Assembly: GCA_029776225.1 (NCBI GenBank)
Contig: JAKOTR010000035.1
Span: forward strand, 1-64,000
Source of the DNA: Acidobacteriota bacterium
Lineage (GTDB): Bacteria > Acidobacteriota > Terriglobia > Bryobacterales > Bryobacteraceae
DNA length: 64,000 nt
Reading direction: 5' to 3'
This document shows, in pieces, positions 17,480 to 33,758 of this stretch. Both the position numbers and the translations under genes were made by a program. Positions within the stretch are counted from its first letter, which is position 1. The number at the start of each line of letters is the position of its first letter. Under the pieces are notes generated by a model. That model was not told where the DNA came from, made no database searches, and was given only the letters and a program-made list of their open reading frames with translations.

Positions 17480-17497
17480 ACTGGTGCAAGCGGGAAC

Positions 17498-18517
17498 ATG
17501 CTGAAAACCCTGAAGCGGACCGTTTTGCGCACAGCGCGCAACACCGGCGTCTTTCGCACGGCTGCAGACAGCCGCTGGCGGCAGCGCCGGCTGTTGATCC
17601 TCTGCTATCACGGCGTCTCGATAGAAGACGAGCACGAGTGGAACCCCGAACTCTACATGCCCCCCGCTGTGCTCGAACGCCGGTTCGCTCTCCTCAGGAA
17701 TAACGGTTTCCGCGTCCTGCCGCTTGATGAGGCGCTCAGCCGGCTCTACAGCGGCAGCCTGCCGCCGCGCAGCGTCGCTCTTACGTTCGACGACGGCTTT
17801 TATGACTTCTACTGCAAGGCCTACTCTCTGCTGAAAGAGTTCGGTTTTCCTGCTACGGTCTACCTCACCACGTGGTATTCCGGCCGCAACGAGCCCGTGT
17901 TCGATCCCGCCTGTCACTACCTGCTCTGGAAGGCGCGCGGCGGCGTTCTGGACGGCCGCCAGTTCGGTATCGCGGAGCAACTCGACCTGAGCACGCCGGC
18001 CGCGCTGGACCGTGCACGATGGGCACTGCTCAACTTCGCCCGCCACAGCCTCGACGAAGAAGGCAAGCAGGAACTGCTTAAGCAGCTCGCCCGTACCGCC
18101 GGAGTTGACTACGGAGAACTGGTGCGCAAGCGGCTGCTGCAGATCATGACGCCCGGCGAGGTTTGCGAGCTCGCCCGCGCGGGAATCGATTTCCAGTTGC
18201 ACACGCACCGCCACCGTACACCCTCCGATCGGGATCTGTTCCTCCGGGAGATCCGGGACAACCGCGAGAGGCTTCAAGCGCTCACCGGCCGCAACCCGGT
18301 GCACTTCTGCTATCCCAGCGGAGTTCACAAGCCCGAATTCCTTCCGTGGCTGGCGGAAGCTTCGATTGCTTCCGCAACGACGTGCGAGCCGGATCTCGCG
18401 TCCCCGCGCTCCAATCCCCTGCTCTTGCCCCGGCTTGTTGACCACTGTGGGCTGGACGAAGTGGAGTTCGAAGGCTGGCTGTGCGGTTGTTCCGCTTTTC
18501 TGCCGCGCCGCGGATGA
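17498..18517 (+). CDS. Polysaccharide deacetylase (NodB/CE4 family)
   Basis: Encodes 339 residues. LCYHGVS (36-41) and VALTFDDGFYDFY (TFDDG at 96-100) hold the catalytic and metal-binding aspartates of the CE4 NodB domain; FQLHTHRHRTPSD carries the two metal-binding histidines, and VHFCYPSGVHKPEF the later conserved proline loop. No signal peptide is clear, so it may act on a lipid-linked or cytoplasmic-side glycan, removing N-acetyl groups. The gene follows the GT4 gene by 18 bases with GCGGGA before the ATG. A segment of about 60 residues (about 125-185) separates the first and second motif blocks. Confidence 0.9.
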   Translation: MLKTLKRTVLRTARNTGVFRTAADSRWRQRRLLILCYHGVSIEDEHEWNPELYMPPAVLERRFALLRNNGFRVLPLDEALSRLYSGSLPPRSVALTFDDGFYDFYCKAYSLLKEFGFPATVYLTTWYSGRNEPVFDPACHYLLWKARGGVLDGRQFGIAEQLDLSTPAALDRARWALLNFARHSLDEEGKQELLKQLARTAGVDYGELVRKRLLQIMTPGEVCELARAGIDFQLHTHRHRTPSDRDLFLREIRDNRERLQALTGRNPVHFCYPSGVHKPEFLPWLAEASIASATTCEPDLASPRSNPLLLPRLVDHCGLDEVEFEGWLCGCSAFLPRRG

Positions 18518-18574
18518 GCCGCGGCTTCCGCTCAGCGGCAGTAGAGTTGCCCAGTTTACGATAGAATACACGCC

Positions 18575-19648
18575 ATGCGTGCGCTCGCGGACAGGGCCTA
18601 TAAAAGGCTTTACGAAAGCGTCAACTACCGCCTTCGTACGTTTGCCTCGGGACGTTACGCTTCCTTCTGCCGCCCCGTTTCGATCGCTATTCTGCTCACC
18701 GAGCGCTGCAACGCGCGCTGCGTGCACTGCGACATTTGGAAGAACAAGGGCGCCGAGCCCGGCCCCTCGGTTGATGAGTGGCGGTGCCTGCTGGACGAGC
18801 TCCGCGACTGGCTCGGTCCCGTTCAGATCGTCATCACTGGCGGGGAGGCGCTGCTGAGACCCTATGCGGTCGATCTGGTCGCGCACGCCTCTTCGTCGGG
18901 CCTGTTTGTGGAGGTGCTCTCCCACGGTTACTGGCTTGACCAGTCGCGCATAGAAAAACTCGCCCTGGCCAATCCCTGGCGCGTGACGATTTCACTGGAT
19001 GCAGTCAGCGACACTCACTCGAAAATACGCGGCCGCCCCGGCTTCTTCTCCGTCACCATGAAAAGCATCGAAACGCTGCTTCGTCTCCGGCGCGAGAAGA
19101 AGCTCGGCTACCATCTCCGCCTTAAGACGGTAGTGATGGAGCATAATCTCGATGAGGTCGCCGGCGTCGCCCGCTTCGCCACTCAGGACGGCGTTCACGT
19201 CTTCTACCAGCCCATCGAGCAGAACTACAATACCGAGGAAGATCCCTTCTGGTTTGAGAAGAGCGCGAACTGGCCGCGCGACACAGAGAAGGCCGTTCGA
19301 GTCGTGGAGGAATTGATTCGCCTCAAGCGCGAGGGACTGCACATCGACAATAGCTACGAACAACTCCGAGCCATGTCCGCCTATTTTCGGGACCCGGCCG
19401 GCCTGCGCATTGCCACCGAGTCCCACACCGCCCACGAAGGCCGGCCCATCTGTTCCGCCCTGACGATGCTTCAAATCCAGGCCAACGGAGATGTGAAAGC
19501 CTGCGCTTCCGCGGAGACAATAGGCAACTTCCGCCAGACCTCGATCCGGAGCATCTGGGAGAATCGCCCCCACTGGTGGGAGCAAGGCTGCTGCATGGAA
19601 AGACGCAGCGCGGCTGCGCAGCTCGCCGCGAAGGCTGTTCAGAGCTGA
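18575..19648 (+). CDS. Radical SAM protein with SPASM-like C terminus
   Basis: Encodes 357 residues. The radical SAM cluster motif is CNARCVHC (Cys45, Cys49, Cys52), followed by ITGGEALL, the SAM-binding GGE motif, and SLDAVSDTHSKIRG. The C-terminal part (RPICSALTMLQIQANGDVKA, then IGNFRQTSIRSIW) looks like a SPASM/twitch extension with further cysteines near the end (GCCMERR). Such enzymes use SAM to create radicals for peptide or small-molecule modification, or in some carbohydrate pathways. Location between a deacetylase and a GT4 suggests action on a glycan or its amino-sugar precursor, but the substrate is unknown. Confidence 0.88.
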   Translation: MRALADRAYKRLYESVNYRLRTFASGRYASFCRPVSIAILLTERCNARCVHCDIWKNKGAEPGPSVDEWRCLLDELRDWLGPVQIVITGGEALLRPYAVDLVAHASSSGLFVEVLSHGYWLDQSRIEKLALANPWRVTISLDAVSDTHSKIRGRPGFFSVTMKSIETLLRLRREKKLGYHLRLKTVVMEHNLDEVAGVARFATQDGVHVFYQPIEQNYNTEEDPFWFEKSANWPRDTEKAVRVVEELIRLKREGLHIDNSYEQLRAMSAYFRDPAGLRIATESHTAHEGRPICSALTMLQIQANGDVKACASAETIGNFRQTSIRSIWENRPHWWEQGCCMERRSAAAQLAAKAVQS

Positions 19649-19652
19649 GCCG

Positions 19653-20825
19653 GTGCTGCCCGCCGTACTGTCCATCTTCGGCATCTCGCCGCGCCGCGTA
19701 GGCGGCGTCGAAATGTTCGCGCGCGAGTTGTCGCAGCAACTGCACGATGCCGGCTGGCGCAGCGTTCTGTGTTTTCTGGAAGAGCCTCCCGCTGACGTCC
19801 GCCGGTTCCTCGATACCCCCGGCGTTTCGATCGAGGTGCTGCGCGGCGCGGTCTGCCCCGGACCGGCAGCTCTCCTTGATGCCGCCCGCCTCATCCGAAA
19901 ACACCGGCCGGAAATCCTGCACCTGCACTTCACCGGCTTCACGACGCTTTACCCGTGGCTCGCAACCGCGCTTTCCGTCCGGCGCGTCTTCCTCACCGAT
20001 CACACCTCGCGCCCCGAAGGCTACCATCCGCGGCCGGCCCCGCTCTGGAAGCGCGCCGCGGCCCGGATCATCAACCACCCGCTCGATAAAGTAATCGCTG
20101 TCAGCGAGTACAACGCACGCTGCTGCGCCGTCTGCGGCTATGTGGCGCCGGACCGTGTCTGCCGCATCTACAACGGCGTCGACTTCCGCCGCGGCGCCGG
20201 CGATCCCGCCGCATTCCGCCTCGCCCACGGCATTCCCGAAGATCGCGCCATCGTGCTTCAGGTCAGCCTGCTGGTTCCCGAAAAAGGCGTCGAAGACCTG
20301 CTCGAAACCGCCCGGATCGTGCTGGCGAAGAACCGCAAGGTGCACTTTGTCGTCGCCGGAGACGGCCCGCGACGCCCCGACTACATGGAACAGGCCCGCC
20401 GCCTTGGCATCGCCGATCATTTCACCTGGACCGGTTTGATCTTCGACCCCATACGCGAGGGCGTCTACGCCGCTGCCGACGTAATTTGCCTGTTGTCGCG
20501 CTGGGAAGAGGCCTTTGGGTGGGTGATCGCCGAAGGCATGATGTTCGAAAAACCCGTAATCGCGGCGCGTGTTGGGGGCATCCCCGAAGTCGTCGAGGAC
20601 GGGCAATCGGGTTTCCTCGTCCCTCGCCACCGCCCGGATCAGGCGGCCGAGAAGCTCTTGGCGCTGCTCGCCGATCCCGCCCTGCGGCAACGCATGGGCT
20701 CCCGGGGCAGGAGGCTGGCTGAAATCCGGTTCAACCTCGAAAGGAATGTCGCCGAACTGCTGAAGCTGTACGGCGTGGCTCCTCACATCCTCGCCGGGCG
20801 CAGCCACTCAGCGTGTGCGTCTTGA
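19653..20825 (+). CDS. Glycosyltransferase family 4
   Basis: Encodes 390 residues, begun at GTG 19653, four bases after the radical SAM stop. The opening [20 protein letters not shown] is the GT4 glycine-rich acceptor loop; [33 protein letters not shown] and [19 protein letters not shown] followed by [14 protein letters not shown] form the donor site with the EX7E glutamates. It is the last plus-strand gene of the glycan array and overlaps the convergent beta-helix gene by 18 bases at the 3' end. Confidence 0.92.
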
Positions 20826-22427
20826 AGGCTCCCGCACCAGCGGCCGCGATTGCCGCGATCCGCCCATGGCCGCCTCAGCCGCCCGCTTTACGGCTTCGAT
20901 GTCCGCTCCCAGATCCAGGCCGTCCGTACCGGCTCCCTTATAGGGCCCGCCGGTTAGCCGGTAGTCGCTTGCGGCCGGATTCGCGAAGTGGATCATGTTC
21001 AAGTTTGCCGGGAAAAAGTTTCCCGGCGGGTAGAGAGACTCCTTTGCGCCCGCAAACACGTTGTGTGTCACCACCGCGCCCGGAAAATGGTACTCCAGCG
21101 CGTTCGTCCCGAGACCCTTTCCCGCGGCGCTGCAAATATCCCCCGTGCCGAGGTTGTTCGTAAATACGAAGCGCACCGCAGGCCGGCTGGAATCCGCCAG
21201 AACCATGCACCCGGACCCGAAAATCGTGTTGTGATCGATGGTGATATCCGGCGGCCCGCTGAGGATTAGAAACGATACCCCCCTGCCTCCCCAGCGCGTG
21301 CGGTCGATGTCCTCGAACAGGTTGTTCCGGAACGCAAGCCGCTGAGTGACGCCCTGGTTTCCCGATTCATCGTCGTGGGCCAGGATATTCATCCCCCCAC
21401 CCGCGTGGCGGAAGAGGTTCGTGGTGACGGAGATGTCCTCAACCATGTTCCACGGCATGCTTGTCCCCTGGGTCCGCACGGTGAACAGAACCGCGAAACC
21501 GTCCCACGTGTTCTCGAAGACATTCTCCTCCACGATGACGCGCCGGGCGTTCTTGAATTCCAGCAGGTTCTTGATCACCCACGCCTCGCCCGCGAAGCTC
21601 GGATGATCTTTCTTCCAGGAAAGCGGCTTGTAAAAATGGTTGCCCCGTATCTCGATGTCCGAAGGCACAATGCCGGGGATGAAGCCTGTCGCGCCCCCGA
21701 ACATCACGTTCTCGGTCGATGCCGAAAGAAAGTTGTTTTCAATCCGAAATGGGCCCGGCCCGTTCCATCCACAGATGGCCTGCGAATCCACTCCGGGGGC
21801 GTGGATCTCGGAGAAATACGAGTCGATCACGGCGGAGTGTGCGCTGTTCAACGCGACAGCCCGCTTGATCCTCTGACGCGGGCTTCCGTGAATGTAGCAC
21901 CGGTCGATGATCAGGTACGCCGGCGCCGCTTCGAGCGTCCGCTGCGCCTGTGATCCGTCGCCGAAACTGATCAGGTCGTACACCATCCCCGGCGGCGCTA
22001 CCGATGAGGTGATTTCCAGCCCGGTGAGCCGGTAATACCGGGCGCCGGGCTCCGTCCGGATGGCCGGGTTGCTGTTGGCGGTTACGATCCTCGCCAACCG
22101 CCCCGCCTTGTCCGGAGTCATTCTGGAGCCGGGACTGGGCAACGGTGTGTCTGTTTGAATCACGATCCACCCGGCCCCGGCGCCCTTGTTCCGCAGGATG
22201 AAATTGCCCGTGCAGGTTGCGCCTGCCGGAATCAAAATCGTGTCGCCCGGGCGCGCGCCATCGATCTTGGCCTGCAAATCGCTGCAATCGGCCGCGACGC
22301 GCAAAGTGGTTCCCGATTGCGCCGGAAACTCGGTTGAGACCCGCTCGCGCGGAGGCTCCGGCAGCGCCCCCCAAGCAGCGAGGGCCGCCGCGAGCGGCAG
22401 TAGGAACACAAGGCGCCTGTTCAGCAT
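20808..22427 (-). CDS. Secreted right-handed beta-helix protein
   Basis: Encodes 539 residues with a cleavable signal peptide (MLNRRLVFLLPLAAALAAWG). The mature part begins with CSDLQAKIDGARPGDTILIP, the start pattern of parallel beta-helix proteins related to pectate lyases and alginate epimerases/lyases. Repeated short coils with Asn-rich turns follow (FRIENNFLSAS, IEIRGNHFYK, VIVEENVFENTWDG, AFRNNLFEDI, ITIDHNTIFGS). It probably binds, cleaves or epimerises an exported polysaccharide. No catalytic residues can be assigned. Last gene of the minus-strand half of the glycan cluster. Confidence 0.78.
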   Translation of the reverse strand: MLNRRLVFLLPLAAALAAWGALPEPPRERVSTEFPAQSGTTLRVAADCSDLQAKIDGARPGDTILIPAGATCTGNFILRNKGAGAGWIVIQTDTPLPSPGSRMTPDKAGRLARIVTANSNPAIRTEPGARYYRLTGLEITSSVAPPGMVYDLISFGDGSQAQRTLEAAPAYLIIDRCYIHGSPRQRIKRAVALNSAHSAVIDSYFSEIHAPGVDSQAICGWNGPGPFRIENNFLSASTENVMFGGATGFIPGIVPSDIEIRGNHFYKPLSWKKDHPSFAGEAWVIKNLLEFKNARRVIVEENVFENTWDGFAVLFTVRTQGTSMPWNMVEDISVTTNLFRHAGGGMNILAHDDESGNQGVTQRLAFRNNLFEDIDRTRWGGRGVSFLILSGPPDITIDHNTIFGSGCMVLADSSRPAVRFVFTNNLGTGDICSAAGKGLGTNALEYHFPGAVVTHNVFAGAKESLYPPGNFFPANLNMIHFANPAASDYRLTGGPYKGAGTDGLDLGADIEAVKRAAEAAMGGSRQSRPLVREPSRRTR

Positions 22428-22466
22428 AGCCGTGGTTTGCAGTTTGGGCCGAAAAGGCGTTGCCTG

Positions 22467-23630
22467 TCAAGCCTTCCCGCCGGCGGCGGAGGCCATCTGC
22501 CGGGCGTCGGTCTCGACGCCGTGGTAAAGCTCCAGCCACTGCTGTCTCACAGATTCCCAGCGATACTTGGAGCATTCCCGCCGCGCGTTGCGGATCAGTG
22601 CGGCTGCCAGCGCCGGATCCTCGAGCAGACGCAGTGCCGCATCGGCCATGGCCCGGTAGTCTCCTTTCCCGACAATCAGCCCGGTTCTTCCGTGCTCCAC
22701 AACGTAAGGAATCCCGCCGGCATCGGTTGTCACTACAGGCAGCCCGCAGGCGAATGCCTCCAGAATCGAAAGCGGCATGTTGTCGATTTCCGACGAGTTG
22801 AGGTAGATGTCCGCCTGGTCGTATACCTGTGGCATCTCCTGCGGCGTTACCCGCCCGAGGAAACTGACGTCCCGCAATCCCAGTTCTTGCGCGAGCGCTT
22901 CGAGTTGACTCCTCTGGCTTCCGTAGCCGGCGACGATCAGCCTGGCGTCCGGGATCCGGCGCTGGATCAAAGCGAACGCGCGCAGAGTGCAAGCGACGTT
23001 GTACATCGGCTCGAGATTCCGGTTCGAAAGGAAAACCGGGCGCAGCGGGTTTCGCTCGCGGAACGGGAACCGTTCGGTTTCGACAATGTTGAAGATCGCT
23101 CGCGCCTGGAGGCCGAATTGCCGGAACACGTCCACGAGATAGGAGGAAGGCACCGCGATGCTGTCCGCCAGCCGGATTGCCGACGCTGCCGACCGCCAGC
23201 GGCGCAGATGATCCTCCGCCTCGCCGCTGTGGTAGTTCAACACGACCTTGCGCCGGTAAAGCCGGCCGGCCAGCATCGCAGGCAGCGGCGCCAGCACAAA
23301 CGACAGGTAGGAGGCCGAGAAAACATGCAGCACGTCGTACCGCGGCACACGCAGCAGCAGGCTGAGGCAGTACACCGGCCAGGTGACCAGCGTGCGCAGG
23401 TACTTCACTCGTTGCAGGGCGCGCAGCGGGCCCGGCAGCGCCGGGTTCACCGGGAGGAAGCCCGCCTCCAGCGTTGGCTCTTCACGGAGCCGGTTGTAAA
23501 GATCGGCTGCCTGGACTGCCTGCCCGCCCAGAATTCCGAGCGACGGCGCGACGATCAGTACGCGGAGCCGCGCGGCCGCCTTCGGGCTTTCCGGTCTGGC
23601 TTTCTCTAAACTGGGTTGCGCGCCTGTCAT
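22467..23630 (-). CDS. Glycosyltransferase family 4
   Basis: Encodes 387 residues. I start at the ATG at 23630, which overlaps the stop of the membrane polymerase gene by four bases; codons further upstream read as an antisense shadow of that gene. RVLIVAPSLGILGGQAVQAA is the acceptor-side glycine loop; VVLNYHSGEAEDHLRRW, FLSNRNLEPMYNVACTLRAF, VAGYGSQRSQLEALAQELG and NSSEIDNMPLSILEAFACGL followed by TTDAGGIPYVVEHG make up the donor domain. Coupled translation with the ligase/polymerase suggests a role in the same repeat-unit pathway. Confidence 0.9.
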   Translation of the reverse strand: MTGAQPSLEKARPESPKAAARLRVLIVAPSLGILGGQAVQAADLYNRLREEPTLEAGFLPVNPALPGPLRALQRVKYLRTLVTWPVYCLSLLLRVPRYDVLHVFSASYLSFVLAPLPAMLAGRLYRRKVVLNYHSGEAEDHLRRWRSAASAIRLADSIAVPSSYLVDVFRQFGLQARAIFNIVETERFPFRERNPLRPVFLSNRNLEPMYNVACTLRAFALIQRRIPDARLIVAGYGSQRSQLEALAQELGLRDVSFLGRVTPQEMPQVYDQADIYLNSSEIDNMPLSILEAFACGLPVVTTDAGGIPYVVEHGRTGLIVGKGDYRAMADAALRLLEDPALAAALIRNARRECSKYRWESVRQQWLELYHGVETDARQMASAAGGKA

Positions 23631-24988
23631 CGCGTTCGCATTGCCTGGGCCCGGAGCGACGGCCTTCTTCGCAGCGGGCGTGCCGGCGCTACCTCTGCTT
23701 TCGCCTTCTCCGCCGAGGCCGGGGTGGCCGCGGCCGCTCTCTCCAGCGCCACAGTCAGTCCGGCCAGCGTGGGTAGCAGATTGCCATAAGCCACAGAGGA
23801 GAAGAACGCCGTAACAGCGTAGGTCACAAGCGCTATTTCGAGCGCCAGCGCGGTGTGGGCTATCTGCAGAAGCGCCGGGTCGCGGCTGCAACCTTTATGG
23901 AGCCTGTGGCAGGTCCGGAGCGAAAGCACCAGGACGGCGGTGAAGAAGACAAACGCCGGCAGGCCCCCTTCGCTTGAGGCTTGCGTGAACGCGTTGTGCG
24001 TCTCACGCCAGTTGGCGCTTCTCCCCTCGGCTTCCGCCAGGTTCTGCTCGGCCACCTGGAACATCCCTGGCCCGGCGCCGAACAGCGGGTTTGCGAGAGT
24101 GATCTTCAGGCTGGCCCACAACAGCGCCAGCCGGCCCTCTTTCGACCCCAGCGCCTTTTCCAGCGAAGGCCCATCTTCCTGCGCCTTTTGGAAAACGGAT
24201 TCGTCTGGTTCGAATATGGTCAGATACCGCACTCGCAAGGAACCCGGCAGGACGATGACGGCCAGCGTGAACGCCGCGGCCGCGGCGGCTGCAAGTCTCA
24301 GCTTATTGGGAAACGAAACGTGCAGGAAAAATACGAACCCGGCGCCCGCTGCCGCCAGCAGCGCCGCCCGTGAGCCCGTCAGTCCCATCGCGTACGCAAT
24401 TACCGCGAAGGCGGGGAACGCCGCCAGCCGGCGCAGTGGACCGCCGCCGTACCGCGTCGCCATCAGCCACCAGAACGGCATCCCGATCAGCAGGGCTTGC
24501 GCGAAGTCGTTGGGGTTCGCGAACTTCCCGGAGGCCAGCATCAGGCGCCCGTCCATTTCGCCTCCGAAGAAAAGCCCCAAAAGCGCGAGGGTCAGAATGG
24601 CGTATGCCAGCGTGTGAACAACCCTTCGGACTTCGCCGAACTCCCAGATCAGGCCGGCGACCAGGAAGTAAACCGGGAGGTTCCTCGAAAGCTCGATCAG
24701 CACCCCCACGCTCCCGCCTCTCCAAACGCTAAACGGCGTCGCGATAGCCAGCCAGATCGCAAACGCAGCCAGAAAGCATCCGATGCGGTGCAATAGCGCC
24801 GGCATAAATCCGCCGGATATGAACAGGAGTCCGAGCGTGGTTGCATATACCAGCGCGGTGATCCGCAGCGACGGTGCGGTAACCTCGATTACCCTGCTGT
24901 ACGCGATGAAAAGATAGAACAGCACAAAAAAGTATCCGGCTTTGCGCGTCGCCGAGGTGGGCGGGAGGGCTTGTGTCGCAGTCGCCAT
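23627..24988 (-). CDS. O-antigen ligase / Wzy-like polymerase family membrane protein
   Basis: Encodes 453 residues with about ten hydrophobic helices and one large loop after the middle of the protein (about 240-330, containing FGAGPGMFQVAEQNLAEAEG and ETHNAFTQASSEGG). The loop glycine-proline and the His in THNAF are typical of the Wzy_C/O-antigen ligase family, which joins undecaprenyl-linked repeat units or ligates them to lipid A or other acceptors. No Wzx flippase or Wzz regulator gene is seen nearby. Confidence 0.85.
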   Translation of the reverse strand: MATATQALPPTSATRKAGYFFVLFYLFIAYSRVIEVTAPSLRITALVYATTLGLLFISGGFMPALLHRIGCFLAAFAIWLAIATPFSVWRGGSVGVLIELSRNLPVYFLVAGLIWEFGEVRRVVHTLAYAILTLALLGLFFGGEMDGRLMLASGKFANPNDFAQALLIGMPFWWLMATRYGGGPLRRLAAFPAFAVIAYAMGLTGSRAALLAAAGAGFVFFLHVSFPNKLRLAAAAAAAFTLAVIVLPGSLRVRYLTIFEPDESVFQKAQEDGPSLEKALGSKEGRLALLWASLKITLANPLFGAGPGMFQVAEQNLAEAEGRSANWRETHNAFTQASSEGGLPAFVFFTAVLVLSLRTCHRLHKGCSRDPALLQIAHTALALEIALVTYAVTAFFSSVAYGNLLPTLAGLTVALERAAAATPASAEKAKAEVAPARPLRRRPSLRAQAMRTR

Positions 24989-25104
24989 CGGATCGTTTCT
25001 CTAGCGCAGCCCCATATTTTCGGGTATTGTCACATCAATATAGCATTCCGGTATCTGGTTGAAGGCGGCCGTTTACGCTCTCGGTGACGGGCAGGCCGTC
25101 CGGA

Positions 25105-27030
25105 TCAGACCGCCGCGAAACCCTCCGCGGCCAGCGACGCCCTGCCGGTGATGAAGATGTCTCCCCAAAGTTGGAAATTGAGCAGCCGCCAGATGCGGTC
25201 CGTCGCGTCTTCGATCCCGGCAGTGTGCCGGGCGAGCAGGTTTTCGATCTCCTTTTCCTGCGTATAGGCCGCCAGCAGGCCGCCGCGGTCTCGAAGCTTT
25301 TCGAGTAATGGAGCCGCATCCGGGGAACGCAGCCAGGCGCGCAGCGGCGTGGGGAACCCCATCTTCCGGCGGTAAATGATCTCCTTCGGGATCAGGTCCT
25401 CCACCGCGCGCTTGAGAATGTACTTGCCCGTGCGCCCGCGAATCTTGAGCGAATCCGGCACGCTGGCGGCGAACTCGACGAACTCGTGATCGAGAAACGG
25501 GACGCGGCTCTCGATCGAAGCGGCCATACTCATCTGGTCCTGCTTCATCAGCAACTCAACGAGGTAGGTCTTCTGATCCGCGTAGAGCAGGCGGGAAAGA
25601 ATTGATCCGGGCCGCCCGGAATCCCACGCGCGTAGGAAATCCGCATACGGCAGATTGCCGGGCGAACAACCGAGCAGCCGTTCCTGATCGCCGGCCGAAA
25701 ACGCGGAATAGAAGTTGTCGAGGTAAAGCGATTCCAGCGATTCGTCCCGGCCCAAAAACGTGTGCTGGAGCTTGCGGCGCAGATCGGCCGGCAGCAGGCT
25801 GGTTGCCGCCACCCAGTCCCGCACGCGCCGGCGTAATCCGGACGGCAGCACACGGTATCGCGCGGCCCAGCGCCGGTTCACGTCGTAGAACCGGTACCGG
25901 CTATAGCCGGCGAACAGCTCGTCGCTGCCTTCGCCTGTCAGCACCACCTTCACACGCTCGGAGGCGAGCCGCGAGACGAAATACAGCGACACGCTCGACG
26001 GCCAGGTAAGGGGCTCGTCTTCGTGCCAGATTAGGCGCGGCAGCGCGCCGAAGAACTCGTCCCTTCCGATAACCACTTCGTGGTGATCGGTGCCGATCGC
26101 CTCGGCCACCTGCCGCGCGTAGGCCAGCTCGCTGTAGGCCTGCTCGCGGTAGCCGACCGAAAACGTCTTCACCGGTTCCGGCGCCATCCGCTGGATCAGC
26201 GCGGCAATCGCGCTGGAATCCACGCCCCCGCTGAGAAACATACCGAGCGGGACGTCGCTCATCAGCCGCATCCGCACGATGTCTTCCAGCCGCCGGCGGC
26301 ACTCGGCGATCCACTCCTCGGCTCCGCGCTCCTCCCCCCGGGGAGCCGGGATGTCCCAGTAGCGGCTGATTTCGAGCCGGGCGCCGCCTTCGGGCTGCAA
26401 CGTGACCGTGAGCGTGTGGCCGGGCATCAGCTTCCGGATCCCGGCAAACAGCGTGCGCTCGCCGCTCGTGTAACCGAATGCGAGATATTCGGGGAGCATC
26501 TCGGGATCGAAGCGCGCCGAAATGGCCGGATGCTTCAGCAGCGCTTTGATTTCCGAGGCGAAGGCGAACAGCCGGCCATCCCAGTAGTAATAGAAGGGCT
26601 TGATGCCGAGGCGGTCGCGGGCGCAGAACAGCGTGCGGGTCTTCGCATCCCACACGGCGAAGGCGAACATGCCGCGGAAACGCGTGACGCAACCGGCGCC
26701 GTACTGCTCGTAAGCATGGAGAATCGCCTCGGTGTCGCACCGGGTTGCATAGCGGTGGCCGGCGCGCTCCAGTTCCGGCCGGAGGCTGGCATGATTGAAA
26801 ATCTCGCCGTTATAGGTGACCCAAACGGTGGAGTCCTCGTTCGCCATGGGCTGCCGCCCGGCGGCGAGGTCGATGATGCTCAGCCGCCGGTGTCCGAGCC
26901 ACGCCGTGTCATCGGAGTAATAACCCGAATCGTCGGGTCCGCGGTGGCGCAGGGCGGCCGTCATGCGCTCGAGGACCGCCCGTCCGCCGCTGTCAGGGCT
27001 TAGCGCAAGGAAACCGGCAATGCCGCACAT
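25105..27030 (-). CDS. asnB: Asparagine synthase-type amidotransferase (glutamine-hydrolysing)
   Basis: Encodes 641 residues. The start MCGIAGFLALSPDSGGRAVL puts the class II glutaminase nucleophile at Cys2. The synthetase domain has MFLSGGVDSSAIAAL (the SGGVDSS PPi loop) and later PSSVSLYFVS and LTGEGSDELFAGYSRYRFYD. This architecture moves ammonia from glutamine to a carboxylate, as in asparagine synthesis or amidation of a surface glycan. The position at the head of the glycan cluster favours the second use, as with amidotransferases of exosortase-linked clusters, but no exosortase is seen. Its start lies 15 bases after the PHP-domain gene. Confidence 0.9.
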   Translation of the reverse strand: MCGIAGFLALSPDSGGRAVLERMTAALRHRGPDDSGYYSDDTAWLGHRRLSIIDLAAGRQPMANEDSTVWVTYNGEIFNHASLRPELERAGHRYATRCDTEAILHAYEQYGAGCVTRFRGMFAFAVWDAKTRTLFCARDRLGIKPFYYYWDGRLFAFASEIKALLKHPAISARFDPEMLPEYLAFGYTSGERTLFAGIRKLMPGHTLTVTLQPEGGARLEISRYWDIPAPRGEERGAEEWIAECRRRLEDIVRMRLMSDVPLGMFLSGGVDSSAIAALIQRMAPEPVKTFSVGYREQAYSELAYARQVAEAIGTDHHEVVIGRDEFFGALPRLIWHEDEPLTWPSSVSLYFVSRLASERVKVVLTGEGSDELFAGYSRYRFYDVNRRWAARYRVLPSGLRRRVRDWVAATSLLPADLRRKLQHTFLGRDESLESLYLDNFYSAFSAGDQERLLGCSPGNLPYADFLRAWDSGRPGSILSRLLYADQKTYLVELLMKQDQMSMAASIESRVPFLDHEFVEFAASVPDSLKIRGRTGKYILKRAVEDLIPKEIIYRRKMGFPTPLRAWLRSPDAAPLLEKLRDRGGLLAAYTQEKEIENLLARHTAGIEDATDRIWRLLNFQLWGDIFITGRASLAAEGFAAV

Positions 27031-27045
27031 TGGGGAATACGGCCG

Positions 27046-28173
27046 TCAGTTCGCCTCGGGCTTCACTTCGACCACGAGAGGCAGCCGTACTTGTAAATTC
27101 CGGCCGGGGGCGACGTGAAAATTCGTCACTTCCAGCTCGATTTCGACGTTGTGCCGTCCCGCGGGAGCCTGCCGCGATGCGCTGAGCTGCGCGCCGAAAG
27201 CGCCCAGCGGGTCCACCTGGCCCTCCCGCAGCGTGAGCCACTCGGGCTTGTTCCTCACGCGGTACCGGAAGCGAAAAGCCGAGGAGTTTGTCAGCCGGAG
27301 CACCGTGCTCCGCCTGGAGCCGGCGAGCGAAATTGTTGAGTTTTCAACCTTCACGGCGCCCTGCCATAACGCGCGGAGGTGCTCCTCGGTGCCCCAGACT
27401 TCGCCGTTCGCCCACGCCGCCGTACGCCGCGCGAACAGCGCTTCCCGGATCCCGGCCGCGTCGGCCGTGCGCGCGAAAACCAGCGTTATCGGGCGCGTTC
27501 CGCCCCTGTAGACGGCGGGCATGGGGGAGTGCACATCGCTGTTGCAGAGAATGGTCCACGACTTCTCGGCAATCCACGGGTAGGCCTCGGGGTAAAAATC
27601 CGATCCATTTACCAGCTCCATGCCCTGGATCAATTTCTCGTCGTAAGCCTGGGCGATGATCGGGAACCATTGCGGCGTCTGCCGCCAGCCCGGGTGGTTC
27701 CAAACGACAAAGGCATTCTGAGCGCGGGCCTTGCGCAAAGCATCCAAAAAGCTCAGTCCCAAAAACTGGTTCGGATCATTGACGAACAGGAGGTTGGCGT
27801 GGATCAGGCCCTCCATTACCTCGACGCCGGGAATCAGGATGATACCCGCCTGAGCGGCCGCAGGCGATGCGATCTCATACGGCCGGTGCAACTTGAGCGC
27901 TACATCTTCTTTATTGGGGTTGTATCCCGCGTGGTCCGTGATGGAAATCGCATCCAGGCCATCGCGCCACGCTTCGGCCACGCGGGTCGTGGGCCAGACT
28001 TCGCCATCCGAGAAGACCGTATGCGTGTGAAAATCGCATTTTAATGTTTGATACCCGGGGATATTCGGAACCGGAAGGGGGTTTCGCTGTTGGGCCGTGG
28101 CAACCGGCGCAAACGCTGCCAGGCACAGGATTGCGCACGAAATCAGCAGAGCAATTCGTCTGGTTTGATGCAT
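27046..28173 (-). CDS. Secreted PHP-domain phosphoesterase-like protein
   Basis: Encodes 375 residues. I start at ATG 28173, preceded by GGGAGGTC and followed by a signal peptide (MHQTRRIALLISCAILCLAA). The PHP domain begins with LKCDFHTHTVFSDGEVWPTT, where FHTHTVFSDG supplies the first metal ligands, and continues with DAISITDHAGYNPN, VIPGVEV-like ILIPGVEVMEG, and ILCNSDVHSPMPAVYRG. The C-terminal about 110 residues are beta-rich. Metal-dependent phosphoester cleavage in the periplasm is likely; the substrate is unknown. It is immediately upstream of the amidotransferase gene, 15 bases away. Confidence 0.85.
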   Translation of the reverse strand: MHQTRRIALLISCAILCLAAFAPVATAQQRNPLPVPNIPGYQTLKCDFHTHTVFSDGEVWPTTRVAEAWRDGLDAISITDHAGYNPNKEDVALKLHRPYEIASPAAAQAGIILIPGVEVMEGLIHANLLFVNDPNQFLGLSFLDALRKARAQNAFVVWNHPGWRQTPQWFPIIAQAYDEKLIQGMELVNGSDFYPEAYPWIAEKSWTILCNSDVHSPMPAVYRGGTRPITLVFARTADAAGIREALFARRTAAWANGEVWGTEEHLRALWQGAVKVENSTISLAGSRRSTVLRLTNSSAFRFRYRVRNKPEWLTLREGQVDPLGAFGAQLSASRQAPAGRHNVEIELEVTNFHVAPGRNLQVRLPLVVEVKPEAN

Positions 28174-28248
28174 GTCGGACCTCCCGTCGGCGTTAAGCCG
28201 AAGTAATGCAACTAGAAAGCCTGAAACGAAATCCAAGACGGAACACTC

Positions 28249-28254
28249 TATAAT
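28249..28254 (+). promoter_or_regulatory. Candidate -10 element TATAAT between divergent genes
   Basis: A perfect TATAAT stands 58 bases before the start of the S55-type gene in the 138-base gap between two divergent genes. No matching TTGACA box is found 16-18 bases upstream. Its near-palindromic surroundings (CTATAATAA) could also serve a minus-strand promoter for the PHP gene. Confidence 0.3.
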
Positions 28255-28311
28255 AAACGTAACCGGCAGTCTCAAGAAGACTAAGGCAGCCGTCTGTAAG
28301 GATTACGCCTT

Positions 28312-30201
28312 ATGAAGAGTGTCCAAGGCGCGGCGCTGTTGGCGGCCGCAATTCTTGTTGTATCCCCCATGGCGCACGCCTCGGCCCAAGACGGCCTGGC
28401 AGGCCTGGATCGCCTGGTGCGGCCAAAAGCCGGCCAGCCGGAGATTATGAAGGCGAGCGAGGTGAAGCCCGGAATGAAGGGCGTCGCCTGGACGGTGTTC
28501 GCCGGCACGGAACCGGAGCCCGTTCCCATAGAGATTATCGGATTGTGGCAGAACGCCTGGGGGCCGAAACAGGACGTCATACTGGCCAAGATGGGGGGCA
28601 AGGCGCTGCGCACGAACGTCGCGGGCGGCATGAGCGGAAGCCCCGTGTATATCGACGGCAAACTTGTCGGGGCGGTCGCTCTGCGGTTAAGCGTATTTTC
28701 GCCGGACGCCATCTGCGGCATCACGCCGATCGAGCTGATGCTCGAAATTAACGAATTCGACAACGCGCTGCCCACTGATGCGAAAACGCCCGACAAGGTT
28801 CGCGTGCAGGCTTCGCTGCCGCTGCCGGACGACATGATTGCCAAAGTAACGGCCGCGGGCGCATCTTTGAACTTCCCGGCGCAGAGCCCGGTCATGGTGC
28901 CCATCGAAACGCCGCTCACGTTTTCCGGCTTCCACCAGGAAGTGCTGCGCGAGTTCGCCCCGTTGTTCAATCAGCTCGGGCTCGTGGCGGTGCAGGGCGG
29001 CGCCAGCGGTCGGCTGGGAAGTCCAAAGCCGGCGCCGGGATGGGAGGAGGCGCTGCAGCCGGGCGACGCGGTGGCGGGCGTGCTGGTCTCCGGCGATATG
29101 AGCGTCACCGGCTTGGGCACCGTCACCTATAACGACGGCCGCCGCGTCCTGGCCTTCGGGCATTCCTTCTTCAACCTCGGCCCGGTGAAGATGCCGATGA
29201 GCAAGGGCGAGATCCTGTTCACCAACGCCTCGTCCTATCAACCGAACAAATTCGGCAACGCAACCGAAATCGTCGGCGCGTTGCATCAGGACAGGCACAG
29301 CGGCATCCTGGGCGTGCTCGGCGACGAGGCGGAGATGGTGCCCGTCACCGTGCGCGTGAGGTCGTTTGGCGAAGACAACACCATCCGCAGGCAGAAAGAT
29401 CTCCACTTCAACGTTTTCGTTCAGCAGAAATGGACGCCGTACCTGATGATGCTCACCCTGTACAACTCCATTTCCGGCCTGAACGACTACCGCGAGGAAT
29501 GCACCTACAGGATCAGCGGCAAAGTTGACTTGGACGGGCAGCAGCAGATGCTCGTCTCGACCATGGAAGCGCCGGGTGAGCTGCCTGTGCCGGCTCCGAT
29601 GGTGCTGGCGGGATGGTGGGGCGATAAGTTCAGCCGCCTGTTCTCCAACGCGGTCAAGACGCCGCGGCTCAAGCGGGTCGACGCTACGGTTGATCTGCTG
29701 CCCGAGCGCCGCATCGCCAGCATCGAGAACGCGTGGATTCCCGCCACCGAAGTGCGGCCTGGAGACCAGGTGCCTATTAAGGTGTTTCTGCGGCCCTACC
29801 GGGGACCGCGCATCGAGCGCACTTTCAATCTGAAAATCCCCGCCGGCCTGCCACGCGGCAACCATCGCATCCTGCTGAGCGACGCCGGAACGCTGAACCG
29901 CATGCAGACTGCGGCCGGCATGCTGAACCGGTACATCGACCTGCCGCAGGTAGTCTCCCTCATCAACCAGGAACGCAGCAACGACAAGCTCTACGTCTCG
30001 CTCGTCGAAGCCCGCCCAACCATCTACTACGACGATAAGACGCTGCCCAGCCTGCCGGCTTCCGTTCTCAACGTAATGCAGACCGGCCGTGTCTCCAGGC
30101 GGCCTTTCGCGATTTCCGGCGAGAGCGCCGTCGAACAGATGGCGATTCCCTTCGAATACGTCATCAGCGGAAGCTACGCCTTGGACGTAACGGTGAAGTA
30201 A
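28312..30201 (+). CDS. Secreted S55 (SpoIVB)-type protein with permuted halves
   Basis: Encodes 629 residues with a signal peptide (about 1-25). Residues 60-146 match the C-terminal half of the SpoIVB peptidase domain: VPIEIIGLWQNAWGPKQDVI, the serine motif GMSGSP (Ser108), then YIDGKLVGAV and GITPIELMLE. Residues 266-340 match the N-terminal half: GLGTVTYNDGRRVLAFGHSF with His284, and ALHQDRHSGILGVLGDEAE. In SpoIVB the His half precedes the Ser half, so the order here is reversed. No PDZ domain is present. About 290 further beta-rich residues follow. It may be a periplasmic serine peptidase or an inactive relative. It heads a likely two-gene operon with the beta-propeller gene. Confidence 0.78.
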   Translation: MKSVQGAALLAAAILVVSPMAHASAQDGLAGLDRLVRPKAGQPEIMKASEVKPGMKGVAWTVFAGTEPEPVPIEIIGLWQNAWGPKQDVILAKMGGKALRTNVAGGMSGSPVYIDGKLVGAVALRLSVFSPDAICGITPIELMLEINEFDNALPTDAKTPDKVRVQASLPLPDDMIAKVTAAGASLNFPAQSPVMVPIETPLTFSGFHQEVLREFAPLFNQLGLVAVQGGASGRLGSPKPAPGWEEALQPGDAVAGVLVSGDMSVTGLGTVTYNDGRRVLAFGHSFFNLGPVKMPMSKGEILFTNASSYQPNKFGNATEIVGALHQDRHSGILGVLGDEAEMVPVTVRVRSFGEDNTIRRQKDLHFNVFVQQKWTPYLMMLTLYNSISGLNDYREECTYRISGKVDLDGQQQMLVSTMEAPGELPVPAPMVLAGWWGDKFSRLFSNAVKTPRLKRVDATVDLLPERRIASIENAWIPATEVRPGDQVPIKVFLRPYRGPRIERTFNLKIPAGLPRGNHRILLSDAGTLNRMQTAAGMLNRYIDLPQVVSLINQERSNDKLYVSLVEARPTIYYDDKTLPSLPASVLNVMQTGRVSRRPFAISGESAVEQMAIPFEYVISGSYALDVTVK

Positions 30202-30221: not shown

Positions 30222-32444
30222 ATGAAAAATCTCATTCGGCTTTTTGTAGCCATTCCGGCGGCCGCCCTCCTGCTTTCGGCTACCAACACCGAGATCTGGT
30301 CGCAAAGCGAATACGAGGATTTCACCAAGGGCAGCCTCAAGAAACTATCGGTATCGAGCGACGGCCGCATCACGCTTGCGCCGCGCTTCAAGGAAATCTT
30401 CGACAGCGCCTCCGTGTATCTCTGGGCGCTGGCGGAGGACTCCAAGGGGAACGTCTATGCAGGCGGCGGAGGCCCGGGCGGGCCCGGCGCGCGTGTGTAT
30501 CAAATCACGCCGGATGGCAAGAGCCAAACACTGGCGGAGTTCGAGGACCTCGAGGTCCATGCCATTGCCGTGGACAAGCACGACCGCGTGTATGCCGCCA
30601 CCTCCCCCGACGGCAAAGTCTACCGCCTGTCTCCAAAGGGGGAGCCCGAAGTCTTTTTCGACCCGAAAACCAAGTACATCTGGGGGATGGCGTTCAATAG
30701 CAAGGGCGAGCTGTTCATCGCTACGGGAGATCGCGGCGAGATCTACCGCGTGTCGCCGGACGGCAAGGGCGGCGTTTTTTACAAGACCGCCGAGACTCAC
30801 GCGCGGTCGCTCGCCATCGACCCGCAGGACAACCTGATCGTCGGCACCGAACCGGGAGGGCTGATTATACGTGTCGCGCCCAACGGCGCCGGTTTCGTGC
30901 TCTACCAGGCGCCGAAACGCGAGATTACGTCGGTGGCGGTCGCCAAGAACGGCGCAATCTATGCGGTGGGCATTGGAAACAAGACCGCTCAGGCGCCGCT
31001 GACCACCGTGCCTTCGACGCGCCCGCCCGCGCAGCAGCCGGTCACCACACCAACCGCGCCCCCGACGCAGGTGCAGCAGCCCCGTACCGTAACGCAGACG
31101 GCGCCGGTAACGGCCCAGCAGACCGTGAGCACCCCCTCCATTCCCGGCGGATCCGAAGTCTACCGCATCGAGCCGGACGGCTTGCCGCTCAAGGTGTGGA
31201 GCCACACGCGCGATATCGCCTATGCCATCGCATTTGACTCCGAAGGCAGACCGCTCATCGGCACCGGCAACAAAGGGACGGTGTATCGTCTGGATTCCGA
31301 TCGGGTGTATACCGAACTGCTGAAGGTGCCGCCTACGCAGGTCACCTTCCTCTTTGCGGGCCGCGGCGGCAAGCTTTACGCGGCCACCGGAAACGTGGGC
31401 AAAGTCTACCAGATCGGCCCCGGGTTGGAAGAGGAAGGCACGCTCGAAAGCGACATCTTCGACGCCAAGCTGTTCTCGCGCTGGGGAAGAATCTCTTTCC
31501 GCGGTAAGGCGAATCAAGGGCGCATTGAGATCGAAACCCGGAGCGGCAATATGGACCGCCCCGAGCAGGATTGGAGTCCGTGGTCGGCCCCCATCACCTC
31601 GCCCGAAGGCGCCGAGGTAACGTCGCCGCCGGCGCGTTTCATCCAGTGGCGCGTGCGCCTGTCGGCGTCCCCGGCGGGCGACTCTCCGGTCGTGGAATCC
31701 GTCGATCTCGCTTACATGAGCCGCAACGTACCGCCGGTTTTGCAGGCAGTGGAGATTACCCCGGCAAATTACCGCTTCCCGCCGCAAACGGTTGTGTCGA
31801 ACCCAAGCGCGCGGAACATCACTCTGCCGCCGATCGGACGAACCTCCCGCCAGTCCACGCCTTCTACCAGCCCGGGCTCGTCGACGGTGTCGATGAACTA
31901 CGCTAAAGGCTACATCGGCGCGCGCTGGGCGGCTTCGGACCAGAACGGCGACGACCTCATCTTTACCCTGGAAATCCGCGGCGAGGGTGAAACCGAGTGG
32001 AAGCTTCTCAAAGACAAGCTCACCGAGAGCCGCTTCAGTTGGGATTCCACGGCGTTCCCGGACGGCGAGTACCGCCTGCGCGTCACCGCCTCAGACTCTC
32101 CATCGAACCCCGTGGGGCAGGCGCTGTCGGCTGAGCTGGTCAGCGAACCCTTCCTGATCGACAACACGCCGCCGGCAATCACCGGCCTGACCGCCTCCAT
32201 AGTGAACGGGAATCTCAGGGTCGCGTTCCGGGCGTCCGATGCGCTGAGCATCATTCAGCGGGCCGAGATTTCTGTGAACGGCGGGGAATGGACCGTGGTG
32301 GATCCGGTCACCAAACTTTCCGATTCGCGGCGGGAAGACTACGAGGTGGTGCTGCCCGCGCCCCCGGGGCGCGAACACACCGTTGCCGTGCGTGTGGCCG
32401 ACGAGTACGAGAACGAATCGGTGGCCAAGGCCGTCGTGCGATAG
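30222..32444 (+). CDS. Secreted beta-propeller protein with Pro/Thr-rich insert
   Basis: Encodes 740 residues beginning with a signal peptide. Residues 60-420 hold repeats of about 40-45 residues of the form 'x-A-x-D-x-G-x-x-Y-A-A-T-x-x-G-x-V-Y-R-x' (VHAIAVDKHDRVYAATSPDG, WGMAFNSKGELFIATGDRGE), consistent with a seven-bladed SMP-30/NHL-like propeller. A low-complexity Pro/Thr/Gln insert (256-308) splits the blades. The C-terminal third has beta-sandwich segments and an Ig-like stretch (TPPAITGLTASIVNGN). Its start is 20 bases after the S55-type gene, so both are likely made and exported together. Function is unknown. Confidence 0.72.
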   Translation: MKNLIRLFVAIPAAALLLSATNTEIWSQSEYEDFTKGSLKKLSVSSDGRITLAPRFKEIFDSASVYLWALAEDSKGNVYAGGGGPGGPGARVYQITPDGKSQTLAEFEDLEVHAIAVDKHDRVYAATSPDGKVYRLSPKGEPEVFFDPKTKYIWGMAFNSKGELFIATGDRGEIYRVSPDGKGGVFYKTAETHARSLAIDPQDNLIVGTEPGGLIIRVAPNGAGFVLYQAPKREITSVAVAKNGAIYAVGIGNKTAQAPLTTVPSTRPPAQQPVTTPTAPPTQVQQPRTVTQTAPVTAQQTVSTPSIPGGSEVYRIEPDGLPLKVWSHTRDIAYAIAFDSEGRPLIGTGNKGTVYRLDSDRVYTELLKVPPTQVTFLFAGRGGKLYAATGNVGKVYQIGPGLEEEGTLESDIFDAKLFSRWGRISFRGKANQGRIEIETRSGNMDRPEQDWSPWSAPITSPEGAEVTSPPARFIQWRVRLSASPAGDSPVVESVDLAYMSRNVPPVLQAVEITPANYRFPPQTVVSNPSARNITLPPIGRTSRQSTPSTSPGSSTVSMNYAKGYIGARWAASDQNGDDLIFTLEIRGEGETEWKLLKDKLTESRFSWDSTAFPDGEYRLRVTASDSPSNPVGQALSAELVSEPFLIDNTPPAITGLTASIVNGNLRVAFRASDALSIIQRAEISVNGGEWTVVDPVTKLSDSRREDYEVVLPAPPGREHTVAVRVADEYENESVAKAVVR

Positions 32445-32549
32445 CGCCCGGCTCAGGATGATCTTTCGCCTTCGGGTGGGTTAGAATCAGAGGATCACAC
32501 CCGTTCGCGCTCACCATTTGTGTGCGAACCTGCTGAAGTAAACCCGGAA

Positions 32550-33758
32550 ATGGCCACAAAAGAGACGAAAAACCGCCGGCGCGGCGAAGAGCGCTCGGAA
32601 GCGCCGGACCGGATGAGAAAGAAAAACTGCCCGGGCCGGGATAAGTACCTGGCCGGCAAAAGAATTCTGCCCAAAAATCTACGCGGCAAGGAGAAGCTTT
32701 CCGATCTCGTCGAGGAGACATTTCTCGCCTACAACTCGGCGCGGCTGCGGGAAGGCTGCCGGTTGTTCGTCGAGAAAATGCTCAAGCCGGACGTGACGAT
32801 CGGCATGACGCTGTCGGGCGCACTCACGCCGGCCGGTCTGGGCTGCTCGTGTGTGGTTCCGCTGATCAAGGCGGGCTTTGTGGACTGGATCGTGTCGACG
32901 GGCGCGAACCTCTATCACGATCTCCACTTCGCGCTGAACCAGGCCGTGAGGGTGGGCGACTTCAGAATCGATGATACGGAGCTGCGGAAGAACGAAATCG
33001 TCCGCATTTACGACGTTTTGATCAAGGCCGATTGCTTGCTGGCGACCGACAAGTTCCTGCGCGACACCCTGGCGCAGCCCGAGTTTCAAGAAGAAATGGG
33101 CACGGCCGAATTGCACTACCGTCTGGGCAGGTATGCCGCCGAATTGGAGCGCAAGGCCGGGCTCAAGGACGTTTCCATCCTCGCCGCCGCATACCGCGCC
33201 GGAGTCCCCTGCTACACGTCCTCGCCCGGCGATTCCAGCATCGGAATGAACGTGGCCAGCCTGGAGTTGCGCGGCAGCAAACTTCGCATTAACCCCTCGA
33301 TCGACGTCAACGAGACCGCCGCTATCGTGCTTGCGGCCAAGCGCTCCGGCGGCAAGAGCGCCGTGGTGCTGTGGGGCGGCGGCAGCCCGAAAAACTTCAT
33401 GTTGCAGACCGAGCCGCAGCTTCAGGAAGTCCTCGGCATCCAGGAAGTCGGCCAGGACTATTTCTTCCAGGTGACCGACGCGCGCCCGGACACCGGCGGA
33501 CTGAGCGGCGCCACGCCAAGCGAGGCCGTAAGCTGGGGGAAAGTCGATCCGGCGAGCCTGCCCGACACGGTGGTCTGCTACACTGACACAACCATCGCCA
33601 TGCCGATTTTCACCCACTACGCGCTGGCGAAGCACAAACCGCGCAAGCTGCGGCGCCTATACGATCAACGGGCCACGCTGGTGAAAGCCCTCGCCAGGGA
33701 GTATTTCCGTGAAAATAAGTTGAAAATGCTCGACGGGTCCGCGCCGGATCTCGACTGA
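32550..33758 (+). CDS. Deoxyhypusine synthase-family protein
   Basis: Encodes about 402 residues (or 412 from a GTG at 32520). The core matches deoxyhypusine synthase/homospermidine-synthase-like enzymes: [68 protein letters not shown], and [11 protein letters not shown] with the catalytic-type Lys281 (numbered from the ATG). A basic N-terminal tail precedes the domain. Eukaryotic DHS uses spermidine and NAD to modify eIF5A. Bacteria lack eIF5A, and bacterial relatives can make homospermidine, so a polyamine product is plausible. The membrane protein with a spermidine-synthase domain is some 7 kb away and may be unrelated. Confidence 0.85.

Follow-up and report, generated by a model that had tools for sequence, protein, structure and literature searches.

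An acidobacterial SpoIVB-like (S55) protein, a probable serine protease, with its two halves in exchanged order and an adjoining beta-propeller gene

The chymotrypsin fold is among the most studied of protease folds. Under the clan PA rule, two six-stranded barrels are joined in one protease; the catalytic Ser follows strand 3 of one barrel, and in the other His follows strand 3 and Asp precedes strand 6. HtrA proteins carry these residues in the order His–Asp–Ser and have PDZ domains. We know of no natural chymotrypsin-fold member whose barrels are exchanged. Searches of open-access papers (including PMC6411480, PMC2395249 and PMC2213659) likewise turned up no exchanged order for either SpoIVB/S55 or the trypsin fold. 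Wide occurrence of S55 SpoIVB peptidases among acidobacteria has been published before (PMC8841776). For the Bacillus subtilis protein, PMC12502668 places Asp363, the supposed third catalytic residue, about 24 Å from His236 and suggests Thr393 as the third residue instead.

The window (the whole stretch of DNA analysed here, 64,000 nucleotides) holds a gene for a relative of SpoIVB. Its product is probably an exported and active PA-fold serine protease of the SpoIVB/S55 line, with exchanged barrels, without a PDZ domain and with a beta-propeller protein as partner. The features to which we refer are as follows.

28312–30201, plus strand: gene of the permuted SpoIVB-like protein (S55), a predicted serine protease, 629 amino acids, ATG start, open reading frame confirmed
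28312–28386, plus strand: likely signal peptide, residues about 1–25, from a hydrophobic N-terminus judged by eye
28417–28752, plus strand: Ser half, residues 36–147, six strands and an end helix (Pfam pieces, profiles and model)
28627–28644, plus strand: GMSGSP motif, residues 106–111, with the predicted nucleophile Ser108
28753–29067, plus strand: connector, residues 148–252, lying between the two halves, without PDZ likeness in profile comparison
29068–29334, plus strand: His half, residues 253–341 (Pfam pieces, profiles and model; structure match weak)
29161–29163, plus strand: codon of His284, in the AFGH motif (residues 281–284)
29290–29292, plus strand: codon of Asp327, in the QDR motif (residues 326–328), proposed third residue of the triad
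29335–30198, plus strand: C-terminal region, residues 342–629 (model; weak structure matches)
30222–32444, plus strand: partner gene, encoding a beta-propeller protein of 740 amino acids, 20 nt downstream of the protease gene

The original prediction placed the Ser motif ahead of the His motif in an S55 domain with swapped halves, and this arrangement is confirmed. GMSGSP lies at residues 106–111 and AFGH at 281–284, and PF05580 (SpoIVB peptidase S55) matches the whole protease in two pieces, Ser half before His half, with a score summed over the two stretches of 39.3 bits (E 9e-10, cut-off 25); the better stretch runs over residues 44–123 and profile positions 111–191. Profile alignments agree. 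Scanning of residues 1–160 alone aligns residues 43–124 with PF05580 positions 110–192 (the Ser half; 24.0 bits, E 4e-5), and scanning of residues 161–430 alone aligns residues 264–329 with positions 12–80 (the His half; 19.8 bits, E 9e-4), both pieces singly falling under the 25-bit cut-off. The continuous His-then-Ser block order of PF05580 is therefore not that of the protease, where the Ser block comes first, and the score against the SpoIVB equivalog TIGR02860 is 27.1 bits, under its cut-off of 305.25 bits. Pfam returned no match to a PDZ domain, for the whole protease or its pieces, and none to the HtrA/trypsin family for the whole protease (E up to 1) or for pieces (E up to 10).

As a canonical control we used three Bacillota SpoIVBs from plasmid records (Monoglobus L141, Sedimentibacter L172 and Subdoligranulum L173, the last unannotated and translated without a start codon), and compared parts of a 30-member family alignment, A1, with the canonical SpoIVB profile using hhalign. 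The Ser half of A1 (36–147) aligns with canonical positions 263–337 at 98% probability and the His half (240–372) with positions 148–234 at 60% probability (E 8.4e-5), column-shuffled versions of the His half (n = 40) reaching at most 1.7%. This comparison also bears out the His-then-Ser order of canonical SpoIVB, from which the original prediction had argued. The connector (148–250), middle and C-terminal parts of A1 give 0.1%, 1.3% and 0.1%, respectively; the noted absence of a PDZ domain, which in SpoIVB precedes the protease domain, stands, with no PDZ match and with residues 148–250 unlike canonical SpoIVB. With A1 left uncut, hhalign returned the Ser half alone, and the His half was seen after the halves had been cut apart. 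A Ser-half HMM matches all three canonical proteins, from residue 236 onward, and a His-half HMM matches one of the three (L172, residues 157–226, E 2.9e-5), the other two being unmatched. The break in the permuted family falls between canonical positions 234 and 263 and so separates the halves, where a circular permutation, or in equivalent terms a barrel swap, would put it. Restoring the canonical order of the halves changed the Pfam score from 39.3 to 45.0 bits for the window protein, and from 53.3 to 57.2 and from 49.7 to 53.2 bits for two relatives; because the rise is slight and HMMER still reports two stretches, this test is uninformative. Circular permutation, one of the two origins first suggested, is upheld by an order that is real and conserved and by a break between the two halves, and the permutation is almost certainly genuine.

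A search for the permuted order across Acidobacteriota, as had been proposed, found Ser before His in 160 of the 160 sequences in which both halves were detected. These come from 165 distinct sequences, of which 159 read Ser–His and one Ser–Ser–His (a split Ser hit); the remaining five, broken frames or pieces, show the His half only (three), the Ser half only (one) or neither (one). The Ser-half and His-half HMM matches are separated by 59–116 residues. A frameshift or assembly artefact behind the swapped order was set aside, the order being common to 160 sequences. We also set aside the idea that other members of the phylum have a canonical S55: among the PF05580 matches listed, all start at profile position 102 or later.

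The phylum was represented by an even sample of 297 genomes, 258 of them of good quality. PF05580 was matched in 278 of the 297 (E <= 0.01), and the full family profile found the protease in 281 of the 297 and in 249 of the 258. It is likewise present in 60 of 61 relatives' genomes. In named genomes 119 stretches encode a relative; the best 80 of the 119 were kept, and their record titles include Bryobacterales, Bryobacteraceae, Solibacteraceae, Acidobacteriaceae, Terriglobia and Acidobacteria. Dissection of 36 genomes, mostly with weak or split protease matches, placed the N-terminal piece upstream and in the same frame in all 16 genomes where a split match lay on one contig; in another (G016) the match is split over two contigs. 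The source genome has a second protease copy (G000:C104, locus L001), of 585 amino acids and with the same half order. The genes of two relatives, L044 (5953–7809) and L107, are broken into two frames, through a frameshift, an assembly error or decay to a pseudogene. A1 was also run against viral contigs, where its 46 matching stretches included no relative; plasmids yielded canonical Bacillota SpoIVB only (one record in one scan, three in another), and PHROGs held no relative of the protease.

With 79 relatives added to the window protein, AlphaFold2 gave a model with a mean pLDDT of 84.3 and a pTM of 0.83 (a single-sequence model reached a pLDDT of only 32). After an N-terminal helix at residues 4–21, modelled at low confidence, the Ser half has strands at 56–62, 68–79, 89–94, 111–114, 117–126 and 134–139, with Ser108 after the third and a helix at 140–144. 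Strands of the His half run at 253–261, 264–274, 278–281, 292–305, 312–326 and 332–336, with His284 after the third and Asp327 between the fifth and sixth. Each half of the model thus has the clan PA order of strands and residues, including the end helix, as in the matching barrel of chymotrypsin. By this model the Ser half is the predicted C-terminal barrel of a PA fold, encoded first, and the His half its predicted N-terminal barrel, encoded second. The C-terminal region is modelled as mixed sheet and helix at 342–466 and as beta-rich at 467–629.

Structure searches with VIA-align place residues 31–147 on DegQ (3pv3; Z 9.3, 107 residues, 2.9 Å) and residues 37–153 on residues 307–426 of SpoIVB (9LNF; Z 8.1, 110 residues, 4.8 Å, 23% identity), and the family profile matches 9LNF at E 3.7e-9, through the Ser half. 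A weak likeness (Z about 6, some 70 residues, roughly 3 Å) links residues 468–629 to macroglobulin (MG) domains found in C3 and alpha-2-macroglobulin and may reflect just a common sandwich; Pfam gave no match for residues 431–629 at E up to 10. VIA-align barely tests parts of the model other than 31–154 and 468–629, and returns a single weak row for residues 199–338 (SplE, 5mm8; Z 6.5, 81 residues, 3.9 Å), which cannot tell which barrel is matched because its chain range, 1–189, spans the whole of SplE. Foldseek with the same model gave no match at E <= 0.001. We treat its top rows, mostly staphylococcal superantigen-like and enterotoxin-type folds (E 0.01–0.03, probability up to 0.57), as noise. 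Lower down, the serine protease Rv3671c (3lt3; row 40, E 0.15) has the top probability of the 50 rows shown, 0.91.

Coevolution analysis was shallow (161 rows, effective 85) and we place no weight on it; its top 60 pairs comprise 39 within one half and 21 between halves. The strongest between-half pair, 146–331 (eighth overall), connects the last part of the Ser half with the strand that follows Asp327, at its beginning, and would presumably fit a packed PA fold; the other 20 between-half pairs are without clear explanation. Strand order, pTM and conservation together favour Ser108 and His284 meeting in one predicted active site.

Conservation was counted over 166 aligned rows, the 165 sequences and the window protein. 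Every row in which the position exists has Ser at 108 (162 rows), His at 284 (163 rows) and Asp at 327 (165 rows, one of these being a Ser-half fragment with a misaligned Asp); residues near the catalytic ones vary (Q326, R328 and A123). Both marks of S55 are present, the catalytic Ser in GMSGS and the His in a G-H motif. Asp327, proposed here as the third residue of the triad, follows His284 by 43 residues, and the spacing of His57 and Asp102 in chymotrypsin is 45. Along the chain the catalytic residues run Ser108, His284, Asp327, which is not the clan PA order of His, Asp, Ser. The place of Asp327 is occupied by Ser, Asn and Asn in the three canonical SpoIVBs and by Asn in B. subtilis SpoIVB, the last by a very weak alignment (−1.1 bits). 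At the Thr393 position the permuted family has Ala in 114 and Ser in 48 of 162 rows, and never Thr. A further acidic residue, Asp262 (29095–29097), lies 22 residues before His284 and is Asp in 162 of 163 rows; by eye, in an alignment that is not gap-free, it may be the counterpart of an Asp that all three canonical SpoIVBs share.

These observations allow other readings of the locus to be weighed. In one, the halves pair between molecules, as a domain-swapped dimer or ring, and the active site forms only on oligomerisation. The 59–116 residues between the HMM matches would give the freedom for such pairing, and in the crystal of SpoIVB an N-terminal segment reaches into an adjacent molecule, an insertion that the authors of the structure regard as likely non-physiological (PMC12502668). 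The pTM of 0.83 for a monomer model, however, suggests a defined arrangement of domains within a single chain, and complementation between molecules, which had been offered originally as an alternative to circular permutation, is unnecessary given that both halves sit in one chain; we think pairing between molecules unlikely. Alternatively, the protein might be a catalytically inactive relative that binds the propeller protein, with the S55 halves as its scaffold. The modest profile scores of the His half lend this some weight, but Ser, His and Asp are invariant wherever the position exists while nearby residues vary, a pattern that makes the scaffold reading quite improbable.

There would be no permutation to explain if the GHSF block belonged to an unrelated fold and resembled the His motif of SpoIVB by chance; an unrelated fold for this block was among the outcomes that the original prediction had named as refuting it. 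The single-sequence likeness of the His half is indeed weak (19.8 bits) and its structure match is one weak row. Set against this are the match of the His half to canonical SpoIVB at E 8e-5, where shuffles reach at most 1.7%, the invariance of GH and D, and a strand order like that of the PA N-barrel. Both the Pfam piece and the profiles instead relate the block to the S55 His half, and a chance resemblance is scarcely credible. The preferred reading therefore remains a permuted S55 protease, which, as judged from its conserved residues, is very probably active.

Beyond the original prediction, we propose Asp327 as a third triad residue and describe a partner gene. The beta-propeller protein that this gene encodes has a hydrophobic N-terminus, seen by eye, from which it is likely to be exported, and shows weak Ig-like matches in its C-terminal part; Reg_prop was matched in 17 of 18 aligned partner members. 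At 19 of 20 diverse loci, including L125 and G027 (44 nt), the propeller gene lies directly downstream of the protease gene. At G124, the one exception, about 57 kb separate the two genes, and the next commonest neighbour family occurs at seven of the 20. Taking as testable the 132 places where the protease gene is listed in both phylum scans, we found a propeller gene downstream, on the same strand and within 3 kb, at 106, with 97 of these within 200 nt; full genome reading adds four (G071, G110, G177 and G295), giving 110 of 132. Of the 22 places without a downstream propeller gene, 16 are in family f21, where both genes are present but apart, another (G153) is at a contig end, and at a further one (G037:C28, 8883–12965) the protease and propeller genes stand tail to tail with 73 nt between them.

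A propeller match at E <= 1e-10 was found in 287 of the 297 phylum genomes. Six of these are weak (G187, G049, G130, G217, G249 and G048; E 5.7e-15 to 3.5e-11), and the three that were re-read have partial matches of about 165–180 profile positions. Among the remaining 281 the weakest match (9e-25, in G159) is a gene cut by a contig end beside the protease. With the E line placed in this gap, a choice made after seeing the data, 281 genomes have both genes and 16 have neither. Nine of the 16 are of good quality, and co-absence is weaker evidence where the genes adjoin, since one deletion can remove two neighbours. Both protease copies of the source genome (C81 and C104) have their own adjoining propeller gene. 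On balance we lean towards the propeller protein being a dedicated partner of the protease; that it acts as an adaptor rather than a substrate is a tentative suggestion, and rather doubtful.

Other genes around the protease were noted in passing. Upstream, at 16352–27030, are genes that resemble a polysaccharide system of the exosortase A (XrtA/PEP-CTERM) type. Two glycosyltransferases (best model TIGR03088) and an O-glycosylation ligase-like protein (TIGR03097) score under the cut-offs of these models, as does an amidotransferase against its best model, TIGR03108; the amidotransferase passes the cut-off of TIGR01536 (asparagine synthase). At L001 389–1333 (minus strand), a divergently oriented exosortase gene (TIGR02602, 186.7 bits, cut-off 105.55) adjoins the second protease copy of the source genome. 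A PHP-domain protein of CehA/McbA type, under both cut-offs, is encoded at 27046–28275, divergently from the protease gene. At 32520–33758 is a gene of the deoxyhypusine synthase family, which matches the NCBIfam model for homospermidine biosynthesis protein (NF001980) with 549 bits (cut-off 450).

We infer export, an active site within a single chain and a role for the propeller protein, which together would work as follows. The protease would be exported, presumably to the periplasm, with the Ser barrel first, followed by a connector some 100 residues long, the His–Asp barrel and two extra beta-rich parts. The barrels would pack against each other in one chain and so form a normal PA active site with a Ser–His–Asp triad, in which Ser108, activated by His284 and Asp327, would attack peptide bonds. 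The propeller protein, whether adaptor, regulator or main substrate, would guide or control the protease and thereby do the recognition job of a PDZ domain. Opinion is evenly poised on the widest version of this proposal, a circular permutant fixed early in the whole phylum that forms, with the propeller protein, an obligate two-protein envelope system in which the propeller replaces PDZ-guided recognition. A role in sporulation was set aside because acidobacteria are not known to form spores.

If confirmed, this family would show that the two barrels of the chymotrypsin fold can be reordered in evolution, and would offer a test, set by nature, of how such domains fold and assemble. It would also supply a relative of SpoIVB whose classical third position is an invariant Asp, which bears on the unsettled third residue of SpoIVB itself (PMC12502668). 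The propeller partner inherited along with the protease points to an envelope system, apparently unstudied so far, that most sampled members of a major soil phylum possess.

Among known systems, the NlpC/P60 proteins, with a circularly permuted papain-like fold (PMC3142127), provide a precedent for natural permutation reordering the catalytic residues of a hydrolase, although they have another fold and a cysteine nucleophile, unlike the permuted protease. HtrA, DegQ, DegS and AlgW are similar in fold to the Ser half (DegQ, Z 9.3) and probably share its compartment. SpoIVB (S55, PF05580, TIGR02860; B. subtilis 9LNF) has in common with the permuted protease both halves, the GMSGSP motif and the G-H motif. 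The permuted protease differs from it in the reversed order of the halves, the lack of a PDZ domain and about 290 further C-terminal residues, and in having an invariant Asp327 and no Thr at the Thr393 position.
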